A stretch of 64,000 nucleotides of DNA from Arthrobacter pigmenti (lineage in GTDB: Bacteria; Actinomycetota; Actinomycetes; Actinomycetales; Micrococcaceae), in assembly GCF_011927905.1 (NCBI RefSeq), contig NZ_JAATJL010000001.1, forward strand, positions 682,001 to 746,000, in the 5' to 3' direction. Within the stretch, counting starts at the first letter, position 1, and the number at the start of each line of letters is the position of its first letter. The position numbers and the translations under genes are program-made. The notes beneath the pieces were generated by a model. It was given only the letters and a program-made list of their open reading frames with translations, was not told the origin of the DNA and did no database searches. Positions 49,757 to 53,748 of this stretch are shown piece after piece.

Positions 49757-50199
49757 ATGAGTTGCTTCACTCCGCCCGCGACGCTCACCACTGCGCGCCT
49801 GCGCCTGGAGCCGCTCGGCCCGGAGCACTCCGAAGGATCCTGGGCGGCGCTACAGGACGCAGAAACGATGCGGCTCACCGGTACCCATCAGCAGTTCACC
49901 AAGCCGCAGGTCGAAGCGTAATTGGTTTTCGGATTGCCCTCAATGGAGAGAGCCTGCTGGGTAGGGGCTACGGCACAGAGGCGACCCGCGCCGTCGTCAT
50001 GCACGCGTTCGATGTGGTTGGTGTACACCGCATCGGTCTTGAGGTTTACGCCTTCAATCCACGTGCGCAGCGTGTTTATGAGAAGTGCGGCTTCCGGATG
50101 GAGGGCCGCCGGCGGGACGCGCTCTACTGGGACGGCGAGTGGATCGATGCCATCATGATGGGTCTGCTCGCCGCAGACCCGCGTTCTACGATGACTTAG
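49757..50199 (+). pseudogene. GNAT acetyltransferase with internal deletion
   Basis: ATG 49757 opens 54 residues typical of a RimJ/RimL-type GNAT start (LTTARLRLEPLGPEHSEGSW, ending KPQVEA and TAA 49919-49921). A second frame, shifted by one, continues from 49921 with IGFRIALNGESLLGRGYGTEATRAVVMHAFDVVGVHRIGLEVYAFNPRAQRVYEKCGFRMEG, the acetyl-CoA-binding core and the end of the same family. The central strand and loop that should join them (about 40-50 residues) are missing. An internal deletion with a frame change has therefore broken the gene. The start and end parts are otherwise well preserved, suggesting a recent event. Confidence 0.75.
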
Positions 50200-52010
50200 T
50201 CCCGGATCCGTATCGCGGTCTCCCGAAGGTATAGGTCAACCCGGGTGTAGGCGTCCCGCGTGAGGGCCTTCCATAGTTCGAGTGCAAGCCGCTGGTCCTC
50301 CGACTCCAAGCGCGATATCGCCTCCGCTGTGAGCACCATTACTTCGACATTGCCGGCGGCCTTCACCGTGGTTTCCTGACGGTCATCGCTGCCGAGGGCC
50401 AGTTCGCCGAAGGTCATGCCTGCGCTGAGGGTAGTGAGTTTGACGCGGTGGCCCGTTGGACCTGCCACGGAGGTGGTGATTTTTCCGGCCAGGATGAAGA
50501 ACACGCCACCGAACCGCTGCCCAATGCGGCGGACCACCTCGCCGTCCTGGTACTCGCGCGGTTCCATCCGCTCGGCCAGTTTCCTCACGTCGTCGGTGCT
50601 CAGCGGGTTCAGCGCCGGGCATTCGGCGATGTCCACGCGGCTCGGCAGGCTCAGTTCGTCGCCATATCTGGTGATCAGCTGATTCTCACACCACTCGACG
50701 GCGGCGGTTCGGGTGTCGAAGGTCGGTACGTCGCGGTCGACGTCCTCAAAGGTTTCGGCAAGGGTGCCTTCACTGTCAATCAGGACGAGTTCCCGTCCGT
50801 CCTCAACCAGATTCTCCCGGGCTTCTGCAAGCAGGCGCAGCGACACATCTGCAACTTCATCCACCCGGCGGAGGTCCAGAATCACCAGCTCGACGTTTTC
50901 TTCCAGCGCGCTCAACTCGCGGACCATCGACTCCGTTCCGGCGAAGAGGAGGTCACCGTTCAACTCGATGACCCTGGCACGGTGGCCATGGTTGCGAAGA
51001 ATCTCCATGGCCTCGTCATTGCGGCGGATACCCGACGGCGACGCGGTGATGTCATAAGTGGAACGGATCGCCGATTTACCGGTGCGGGCAGCACGCACAA
51101 AGTGCAGTTCCATGTCGCGGGAGAGCCGCTGGCTGGTCGCCATGCCGCGCACGCTGCTGCCATGTTCGTCCAGCGGCGGTGAATAGACGGCGAGCCCCAC
51201 CTGACCAGGGAGCACCGCGATCGTACCGCCACCCACGCCGCTCTTGGCAGGCATGCCAACCGTGCTGATCCAGGCTCCGGCGTCGTCGTACATTCCACAG
51301 GTGGTCATCACGGAAAGCACGCGCTCAATAGGCACTATTTCCATCACCTGTTTGTCCGTCATCGGGTTCCGGCCGCTGTTCGCCAGTGTTGCGGCCATGA
51401 TCGACAGGTCCAGACAGTTAACCAAAACCGAGCATTGGCGGAAGTAATCCTCGAGAACCGGAGTGGGGTCATCCTCAATGATGTTGAAGGACCTCAACAG
51501 ATGGGCAAGGGCCCGGTTGCGGTGCCCATGCTCCAACTCCGATTCGAAGATCTCGTTGTTCACGGTCAGCTGACGCCCGGCAAAAGCCGAATACGTGTTG
51601 AGGACGCGTTTGAAGCGTGCGTTACCGCCGGACCCTTTGATGAGCGAGGTGGCGGTCAGTGCCCCCGCATTGATCATCGCGTTGGAGGGGCGTCCGGTAC
51701 CCTCGGCCAGCGACATCTCGTTGAACGAGTCCCCGGACGGCTCTACGTCAACCTTCTCGTCCACCGCCTCAAGACCGAGGTCCGCCAGTGCAAGCCCGTA
51801 GGTGAACGGCTTAGAGATGGACTGGATGCTGAACTCTTCCCGAGTGTCTCCCACCTCGTAGATGTATCCATCCACCGTAGTAAGGCAGATGCCGAAGTTG
51901 TCGGGATTGACGTTGGCCATCGCCGGAATGGTGCTGTAAGGCTTTCCGTCCTTGAGGCTTGAAATCTCCTGATGGATCCTCTGCAGGTAACGTTCGATCG
52001 GCGATTCCAT
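50196..52010 (-). CDS. glsA: Glutaminase A fused to STAS and cyclic-nucleotide-binding domains
   Basis: This is a 604-residue protein. Residues 1-305 are glutaminase of the serine beta-lactamase-like fold, with Ser64-Ile-Ser-Lys67 as the catalytic S-x-x-K, GRPSNAMINAGAL and NSGRNPMTDKQV. This enzyme converts glutamine to glutamate and ammonia. A STAS-like domain follows (about 340-440: RVIELNGDLLFAGTESMVRELSALEENVELVILDLRRVDEVADVSLRLL) and then a cNMP-binding domain (about 480-595: REYQDGEVVRRIGQRFGGVFFILAGKITTSVAGPTGHRVKLTTLSAGMTFGELALGS). The triple fusion suggests allosteric control by a nucleotide. It is convergent with the GNAT pseudogene. Confidence 0.9.
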   Translation of the reverse strand: MESPIERYLQRIHQEISSLKDGKPYSTIPAMANVNPDNFGICLTTVDGYIYEVGDTREEFSIQSISKPFTYGLALADLGLEAVDEKVDVEPSGDSFNEMSLAEGTGRPSNAMINAGALTATSLIKGSGGNARFKRVLNTYSAFAGRQLTVNNEIFESELEHGHRNRALAHLLRSFNIIEDDPTPVLEDYFRQCSVLVNCLDLSIMAATLANSGRNPMTDKQVMEIVPIERVLSVMTTCGMYDDAGAWISTVGMPAKSGVGGGTIAVLPGQVGLAVYSPPLDEHGSSVRGMATSQRLSRDMELHFVRAARTGKSAIRSTYDITASPSGIRRNDEAMEILRNHGHRARVIELNGDLLFAGTESMVRELSALEENVELVILDLRRVDEVADVSLRLLAEARENLVEDGRELVLIDSEGTLAETFEDVDRDVPTFDTRTAAVEWCENQLITRYGDELSLPSRVDIAECPALNPLSTDDVRKLAERMEPREYQDGEVVRRIGQRFGGVFFILAGKITTSVAGPTGHRVKLTTLSAGMTFGELALGSDDRQETTVKAAGNVEVMVLTAEAISRLESEDQRLALELWKALTRDAYTRVDLYLRETAIRIRD

Positions 52011-52116: not shown

Positions 52117-53151
52117 ATGTCACTGCTGCCCACTGCCGAATTGCACCTGCATATTGAAGGAACGCTGGAGCCTGAGCTGATCCTTGCGCTTGCAGAACGC
52201 AACGGTATCGAACTGCCATACGCCAACCTTGAGGATTTGCGCGCACAGTACCAATTCACGGACCTGCAGTCCTTCTTGAACCTCTACTACGAGAACATGG
52301 CTGTGCTGCAGACAGAGCAGGATTTCGCGGACATGACGCGCGCCTACCTCAGGCGGGCAGCCGCGGCCGGAGTGCGGCATGCAGAGGTCATGATGGATCC
52401 GCAGGCGCATCTATCCCGTGGAATAACCCTCGAGACCTGCGTCAATGGTGTTGCTTCGGCGCTGGCGACAAGCGAGGAGCAGTTCGGCGTCAGTACTGAG
52501 TTGATAGCAGCGTTTCTGCGGGATGAGCCGGCCGAGGAGGCGTTGGCTGTGCTTGAGAACCTGCTGGCGATGGATGCGCCAATCATCGGCATCGGTCTGG
52601 ATTCAGCCGAAGTGGGCAACCCGCCGCGGGACTTTGTTGCGCTCTACGAGCGGGCACATGCGGCCGGCCTCAAATGCATTGCCCATGCGGGAGAGGAGGG
52701 CCCGCCGGAATATATCCGCGAAGCACTCGACCTATTGAAAGTTGCTCGCATAGACCACGGCATCCGCTGTTTGGAGGACGAAAACCTGGTGGAGCGACTG
52801 GTTGAGGATCAGACCCCGCTGACCGTCTGTCCTTTATCCAACGTGCGGCTTCGGACGGTCGATACGCTGACCGATCACCCTTTGCCCCAAATGCTGGAAC
52901 GCGGCTTGAACGTGTCGGTGAATTCCGACGATCCTGCGTACTTCGGGGGATATATGGACGAGAATTTCAACCAGCTTCAGGGCACCTTCGCATTCGATGC
53001 CAACCAGTTGGCGCAGCTTGCCAGGAACTCTGTGCGCTCAGCCTTCATCACTGACGCGCGCCGACGCGAACTGCTCGCCGAAATTGGGGCTTGGCAGATA
53101 GAGTCTCGCGGTCGGTTGGAGGTTCCTACTTCCGCCGACCACCGTCGATGA
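52117..53151 (+). CDS. Adenine deaminase (adenosine/adenine deaminase family)
   Basis: This is a 344-residue amidohydrolase-fold enzyme. HLHIEGTLEP carries His10 and His12 for zinc, HAGEEGPPEYI and DHGIRCLED supply further ligands, and VNSDDPAYFGGY has the catalytic aspartates. LNLYYENMAVLQTEQDFADMTRAYLRRAA and MMDPQAHLSRGI are features of the adenine (rather than adenosine) aminohydrolase branch, so adenine to hypoxanthine is the likely reaction, but adenosine use cannot be excluded. It is divergent from the glutaminase gene. Its last 26 bases overlap the DoxX-like gene on the other strand. Confidence 0.87.
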   Translation: MSLLPTAELHLHIEGTLEPELILALAERNGIELPYANLEDLRAQYQFTDLQSFLNLYYENMAVLQTEQDFADMTRAYLRRAAAAGVRHAEVMMDPQAHLSRGITLETCVNGVASALATSEEQFGVSTELIAAFLRDEPAEEALAVLENLLAMDAPIIGIGLDSAEVGNPPRDFVALYERAHAAGLKCIAHAGEEGPPEYIREALDLLKVARIDHGIRCLEDENLVERLVEDQTPLTVCPLSNVRLRTVDTLTDHPLPQMLERGLNVSVNSDDPAYFGGYMDENFNQLQGTFAFDANQLAQLARNSVRSAFITDARRRELLAEIGAWQIESRGRLEVPTSADHRR

Positions 53152-53533
53152 TCAGCGCCAGCGCGATGCCGAACATCCAGACGTCCTTCGCGACGGGTGT
53201 GCCCTGCTGACTCGGGCGTACGTCGTCGTCCTCGGTCATTTCGGGTGTGCGGAAGTACATCGCGAGCAGCCCGCCGGAGAAAGCGGCGAGCCCCAGTCCC
53301 ACGAGCCGGCTCGGAACAAACGGGAGCAGGAGAGCCGCACCCAATCCTGTCTCGACTGCTGAGAGGACTTTGCCGAACTTCTCCGGGTCCAGCTGTTTCA
53401 CCTGTGGAAAGGCGTTGGCCGCCATACCCTGCAGATAGCCCGCGCTGTCACGGTCGATGTTCCGTTTGGTCAAACCGGAATTGAGGATGAACGCGCCTGT
53501 ACTGAAGCGGAGCGGAATGTGGCTCGCGATCAC
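53126..53533 (-). CDS. DoxX-like membrane protein
   Basis: This is a 135-residue membrane protein with about four segments (IPLRFSTGAFILNSGLTK; VLSAVETGLGAALLLPFV; LVGLGLAAFSGGLLAMYF; VWMFGIALALIIDGG). The layout fits the DoxX/DoxD-like family, whose members include oxidoreductase-associated proteins of unclear role. AGGAGG 5 bases before GTG 53533 decides the start over TTG 53548. It overlaps the convergent adenine deaminase gene end. Confidence 0.76.
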   Translation of the reverse strand: MIASHIPLRFSTGAFILNSGLTKRNIDRDSAGYLQGMAANAFPQVKQLDPEKFGKVLSAVETGLGAALLLPFVPSRLVGLGLAAFSGGLLAMYFRTPEMTEDDDVRPSQQGTPVAKDVWMFGIALALIIDGGRRK

Positions 53534-53748
53534 TGAAACCTCCTGCAAAGTTGTGGCCTGGACTTCGAGCCTATGTCCGTCCCGCTGTCGAACGCCAGTG
53601 TTTGACGATTCAAATAGTGACCGCTCCGTGATCCTTGCGTGATGGAACCTTTACCTCCGTGTGCTTATGGTGGTCGCTGGCTTCGTTCGGGAAATCCGCC
53701 TGCGGCCACGGCTCAGCGATACGTAACCACTGTGAAGAAGGTCTTGAT

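Follow-up and report, generated by a model that had tools for sequence, protein, structure and literature searches.

A STAS- and cyclic-nucleotide-binding-domain glutaminase of Arthrobacter pigmenti with a transporter-like tail and a replaced phosphate-binding arginine

The salt-tolerant glutaminase Mglu of Micrococcus luteus K-3 (PDB 3agd, 3ih8, and others) is the best match, by both sequence and fold, to the protein described here. The C-terminal region of Mglu aligns with the STAS part of our structural model as far as residue 419, but its solved chain of 456 residues is without the linker and cyclic-nucleotide-binding (CNB) part that the window protein carries. Identity in the structural alignment is 42% and the root mean square deviation (rmsd) over both domains is 11.8 Å, and the domain arrangement thus differs, is flexible, or is poorly predicted. 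Escherichia coli YbaS, Bacillus subtilis YbgJ, and the human GLS core have the catalytic domain in common with these enzymes but no STAS or CNB tail, and the active-site positions of bacterial single-domain glutaminases are as in the window protein. The CNB domains of Crp/GlxR and PKG share the predicted fold and the FGE-x-AL half of the phosphate-binding cassette; however, they keep the phosphate-binding arginine and an acidic loop residue, both of which are replaced here. In SulP-type transporters (Sulfate_transp plus STAS plus cNMP_binding), the tail, including the linker, aligns with that of the glutaminase as one unit, although the N-terminal half is a membrane transporter in those proteins and an enzyme in this one.

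The window, by which we mean the whole 64,000-nucleotide stretch of Arthrobacter pigmenti DNA that was analyzed, codes on its minus strand for a protein with glutaminase, STAS, and CNB domains (Table 1). The original prediction of such a fusion is borne out, with all three Pfam matches above their gathering cut-offs. The minus-strand frame is open over its 604 codons, and the plus strand read from the same start is interrupted by stops. We reject a chance or spurious frame because the gene is present at full length in at least 34 of the 38 genomes of the genus (its own included) and dN/dS is well below 1. The TIGR03814 profile matches at 332.3 bits (cut-off, 255.4), and the NCBIfam glutaminase model NF002134 stays below its cut-off, with 479.2 bits against 557 over residues 1 to 435; by our own reading, the 429 positions of NF002134 correspond to the length of a two-domain enzyme. 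After removal of eight identical sequences, we assembled a non-redundant set of 48 three-domain proteins, the window's included, of which 48 match Glutaminase, 47 match cNMP_binding, and 39 match STAS (PF01740) at an E value of 0.001. No promoter of the types covered by the scan was found in the gene region, and there are three terminator-like sites against 1.3 expected, all within the glutaminase gene.

Table 1. Coordinates of the three-domain glutaminase gene and its features (positions within the window).
Feature	Position	Strand	Remarks
Glutaminase-STAS-CNB gene, 604 aa	50196..52010	-	ATG start; stop at 50196-50198
Glutaminase domain, residues 22-303	51102..51947	-	Pfam PF04960, 372 bits (gathering cut-off 27)
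SxxK pair S64/K67, glutaminase active site	51810..51821	-	S and K in 138/138 aligned rows
STAS domain, residues 344-433	50712..50981	-	Pfam PF01740, 30.5 bits (cut-off 22.6)
Linker, residues 434-465, AVEWCENQ motif	50616..50711	-	E442 invariant, 48/48
cNMP_binding domain, residues 485-568	50307..50558	-	Pfam PF00027, 51.1 bits (cut-off 27.5); predicted fold
β2-β3 loop, residues 497-502 (GQRFGG; F500, G501)	50505..50522	-	
Phosphate-binding cassette, residues 534-551, FGELALGSDDRQETTVKA	50358..50411	-	E536 kept; Arg position is Q545
Long C-terminal helix, residues 573-603	50202..50294	-	Secondary structure of model

The catalytic domain is predicted to be a soluble Ser-Lys glutaminase that would convert glutamine to glutamate and ammonia. 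We aligned 138 three-, two-, and single-domain glutaminases (137 fetched rows, 130 of them distinct), and no row differs at S64, K67, N114, Y189, Y241, and S257, which correspond to the SxxK and Asn/Tyr/Ser active-site positions of the family. In STAS domains of the SpoIIAA type, the phosphorylated serine lies in a DSSG motif; the corresponding position, located by eye in the alignment with the SulP tails, is V389 here and is a serine in 5 of the 48 three-domain proteins. A SpoIIAA-type phospho-switch is unlikely in this STAS domain because of the valine at the phosphorylated position.

The three-domain architecture is not rare and is ordinary in this group. Matches reaching the CNB domain are present in at least 76 of 197 genomes of the family (counted by hand), 15 of 198 of the order, 16 of 296 of the class, and 7 of 296 of the phylum, with its own genome included at each level; these numbers, like that for the genus, are floors, as diverged tails are missed. 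The conjecture that related fusions might occur in other actinobacteria is thus confirmed by genome searches from genus to phylum, and some proteobacteria have them too. Named three-domain relatives at 14 of 21 loci comprise nine Arthrobacter records and five proteobacterial ones, the latter from Thiocapsa (three), an unclassified gammaproteobacterium (one), and a Rhodocyclaceae genome (one). Twelve family matches with long open frames and ending before the CNB domain were picked and fetched, 11 of which were readable; all 11 carry a C-terminal stretch matching the profile, 10 of them with glutamine at the arginine position, and the twelfth, from the same genus, has a run of N at the C-terminal stretch. 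We note that in one family relative (L166; G446:C1:2034800-2037500), the CNB region is strongly diverged and without a recognizable cassette. The A. pigmenti genome also codes for a two-domain glutaminase paralogue with a STAS match and no CNB domain (L002:1501-2784; G000:C1:3766354 onward). Plasmid records gave 209 partial matches, none covering 80% of the query. In Acinetobacter baumannii plasmid records (H2 to H7), a glutaminase matches query residues 1 to 431, into the STAS domain, at 39.9% identity.

The STAS-linker-CNB order also occurs at five of the six loci L047 to L052 and at eight further loci, and a Sulfate_transp domain precedes the tail in all 10 such proteins scanned. A profile of the glutaminase tail matches all 13 of these SulP-type proteins over nearly the whole length, with E values of 3e-40 to 5e-55 from small target sets; no shuffled version of the first five scores above 1.8 bits. 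L051 is below the threshold that we set. When the tail is taken in pieces, the CNB part matches the SulP-type proteins strongly and the STAS domain and linker moderately, and the stretch before the STAS domain (residues 312 to 343) has no match to them. The linker peptide AVEWCENQ was among those that led to loci L047 to L052, which are biased for linker conservation and therefore cannot demonstrate it alone. The eight further transporters were chosen from the phylum listing without use of this peptide; an EWCE-like pattern is present in two of the eight, and the profile match still spans the linker.

The CNB domain departs from the canonical form at its phosphate site. According to Kannan et al. 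(2007, PMC2246266), the canonical cassette reads FGE-x-AL...R, with the arginine coordinating the phosphate of cAMP, and arginine-to-lysine replacement in PKA lowers affinity nearly 10-fold; families with non-canonical cassettes are described there as having other ligands or none known, and the cassette arginine as co-evolving with a glycine of the β2-β3 loop that is adjacent to an aspartate. In the window protein, this arginine is replaced by glutamine (Q545), in a register that we verified with the genome's own canonical Crp (cassette PRTAT). Across the 48 three-domain proteins, the position is glutamine in 26, arginine in 16, and another residue in 6. The acidic loop residue, equivalent to PKA Asp170 in a register aligned by eye, is G501. 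Aspartate or glutamate occupies position 501 in all 19 distinct Arg-type sequences versus 3 of 59 other distinct sequences, and the Arg-type loop at 500-501 is mostly alanine followed by Asp or Glu. This association of arginine and acid is strong in numbers but comprises only two independent contrasts on the tree, both in the same direction (sign test, p 0.5), and its Fisher p-value ignores relatedness and is not counted as evidence. The loop-glycine position (F500 here) is alanine in 12 of 16 Arg-type and phenylalanine in all 26 Gln-type proteins; the glycine is missing in the Arg-type too, and therefore only the neighboring acid separates the Arg-type from the others.

Forty-five of the 48 three-domain proteins retain the cassette's ribose-side glutamate, E536, and A538, at the position of PKA A202, is alanine in 25 of the 26 Gln-type ones. 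R544, which adjoins Q545 and might stand in for the missing phosphate-binding residue, is an arginine in 20 of the 26 Gln-type proteins and in 8 of the 16 that are Arg-type. The position of E546 varies, and 10 further family members read RQ, then I/L/V, then S/T, then T. The A. pigmenti genome has an adenylate/guanylate cyclase match (PF00211; 41.1 bits against a cut-off of 21.9; L147, G000:C1:961561-962007) and a canonical Crp gene, and for this reason cAMP is probably present in the cell. A third CNB-domain protein in the same genome (L146; G000:C1:3284577-3284813) appears to combine the domain with a region that is putatively histidine-kinase-like.

AlphaFold models the whole protein with a mean pLDDT of 86.7 and a pTM of 0.81, and the CNB part alone (residues 452 to 604) with 89.0 and 0.84, respectively. 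The fold search with the whole model was filled by glutaminase chains and did not probe the tail; the CNB part was folded and searched by itself. Its best matches among those listed come from the CNB domains of proteins such as Crp, GlxR, and PKG, with Z scores of about 16 to 18 for Crp-type regulators and about 15 to 16 for PKG domains; GlxR aligns with the predicted fold over 144 residues at 2.7 Å (Z score, 17.9). The cassette region is modeled less surely, with 10-residue pLDDT means of 77 to 80 across residues 511 to 550 of the whole-protein model. The C-terminal helix occupies the place of the CRP C-helix, with the Crp/GlxR structural alignment running into it, and presumably has a role in an oligomer (dimer).

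Selection was assessed in 44 three-domain genes of exactly 604 codons, using pairs with dS of 0.1 to 1.0. Over 477 pairs, dN/dS has a median of 0.16 in the catalytic domain, 0.24 in the CNB part, and 0.26 in the STAS domain; in the linker (470 pairs) it is 0.34. Purifying selection acts on the CNB part, which is evidently retained for some purpose in which the arginine plays no part; its dN/dS makes drift unlikely in this lineage.

When a tree is built from the catalytic domain alone, the three-domain proteins that have no arginine are joined by 29 of the 32 two-domain glutaminases, and Arg-type three-domain proteins turn up on several branches. Sixty rows (31 three-domain without the arginine and 29 without the CNB domain) lie on one side of a branch with an ultrafast bootstrap of 100 and an SH-aLRT of 99; this group was defined after a quick tree and leaves out the two-domain L014, L016, and L017 and the Asp-type L134, and L046 and L031 were omitted from the careful tree. 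The tree program does not infer root placement, and we therefore infer the direction of evolution ourselves. With the root outside the 60-row group, the arginine would have been lost at the base of the group and once more in L134 (two changes), and the CNB domain would have been dropped later, more than once, giving rise to the Mglu type. The opposite direction, with gain of the CNB domain, could also apply. We regard as doubtful a broader scenario, in which a regulatory STAS-CNB cassette shared with SulP proteins joined a soluble glutaminase and in one actinobacterial lineage swapped the cyclic nucleotide for another signal, coupling glutamine breakdown to a different ligand, with most two-domain glutaminases (Mglu) descending by loss of the sensor.

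We favor, at slightly better than even confidence, an explanation in which the tail is functional, either assembling or regulating the glutaminase, and is not a cyclic-nucleotide sensor in this lineage. The STAS-linker-CNB tail of the ancestor probably read a cyclic nucleotide, as the Arg-bearing relatives may still do; cyclic-nucleotide control is plausible in the 16 of 48 proteins that keep the arginine. In the lineage of the window protein, the phosphate-binding arginine would have changed to glutamine and the loop acid to glycine, with the ribose-side glutamate, the predicted fold, and purifying selection remaining. Given the replacement of both residues, any response of the tail to cAMP or cGMP has most likely disappeared, and the CNB domain of the window protein would, judging by these positions, have lost cAMP binding. 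The tail may hold an oligomer together via the STAS domain and the long C-terminal helix, or it may inform the catalytic domain of another signal, be it a different ligand or a partner protein. An influence of the tail on glutaminase activity is presumed in both cases. Counting against this explanation are the likely presence of cAMP in the cell, R544, the retention of E536, the absence of the loop glycine from Arg-type relatives as well, the two contrasts behind the association of arginine and acid, and the less sure model of the cassette.

It is unlikely that cAMP or cGMP binds the CNB domain and directly controls the glutaminase, with R544 or a rearranged cassette replacing the missing arginine, and the original prediction of control by cAMP or a similar nucleotide is not supported in this protein, in which Q545 and G501 stand in the place of the arginine and the loop acid. 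Such control would agree with a CNB match well above the Pfam cut-off, with the binding of cAMP or cGMP by many of the closest solved relatives, with the cyclase and Crp genes of the genome, with the retention of E536, with the presence of R544 in 20 of 26 Gln-type proteins, and with the existence of Arg-bearing relatives. Against it, the arginine position is glutamine in 26 of the 48 three-domain proteins, 10 of the 11 additional family members that were readable have glutamine there too, and the acid of the loop is lost. The combination of a kept cassette glutamate, a lost phosphate-binding arginine, and a conserved new motif would also suit a pocket that binds a ribose-bearing molecule without a cyclic phosphate, such as a purine nucleoside, and sets glutaminase activity accordingly. 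There is precedent for this in trypanosomatid PKA, for which a 2024 report (eLife, PMC10959531) describes pockets that have polar residues in place of the arginine, bind purine nucleosides, and also have a glutamate at the position of PKA A202. This second hallmark is absent from the window protein, however, in which the residue is A538, and the adenosine deaminase gene adjacent to the glutaminase gene is a neighbor at only 1 of 85 three-domain loci, the window's own (the flanks covered were mostly 1.5 kb, reached as much as 5 kb at 14 loci, and were shorter at contig ends), and we consider a ligand switch of this kind quite improbable. We give the lowest credence, and think it very unlikely, that the CNB domain is a vestige that, with the arginine gone, is drifting toward the loss seen in the two-domain Mglu type. 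The grouping of two-domain rows with three-domain ones that have no arginine (29 of 32) is as expected for a vestige, as is the relative without a recognizable cassette, but CNB dN/dS is similar to that of the STAS domain and far below 1, and an RQ-T-T pattern recurs in distant Gln-type members (the glutamine itself being present in 26 of 26 by definition).

The three-domain architecture combines familiar domains and many genomes have it; what we have not seen described are the loss of the canonical nucleotide site and a tail that transporters also carry. Full-text literature searches, in which subscription journals are thinly covered and which are thus weak evidence, found no characterized three-domain (STAS/CNB) glutaminase among the papers listed. 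The earlier remark that no characterized example was known agrees with this for the three-domain enzyme; there is a relative with solved structures, Mglu, which is without the CNB domain. Two candidate papers describe no such protein: PMC2837644 tabulates the domains that occur together with eukaryotic FYVE/PX domains, and PMC4533780 concerns asparaginase. If the tail is indeed functional and no cyclic-nucleotide sensor, then it would be a mistake to read the three-domain class as cAMP-controlled in the bacterial family where we encountered it most often, and the series from Arg-type to Gln-type to loss of the sensor would be a natural one for asking how the allosteric domain of a metabolic enzyme can switch ligands or stop binding one. 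The STAS-CNB tail of SulP proteins would likewise gain a test bed in a soluble and easily assayed protein. There is an applied side as well, bearing on food-processing glutaminases, for which the model enzyme Mglu is a tail-less relative.

The adenosine deaminase gene (PF00962; 52114-53151, plus strand) is divergent from the glutaminase gene, with 103 bases between the listed starts, and was rejected as a functional partner on the neighbor count given above. In the near relatives L032 to L034 and L059, a small frame homologous to window positions 53126-53548 is in the deaminase's place and adjoins the glutaminase gene, so that here the deaminase gene sits between the two. On the other side, a GNAT acetyltransferase-like frame (49762-50199, plus strand) shares four bases with the end of the glutaminase gene.
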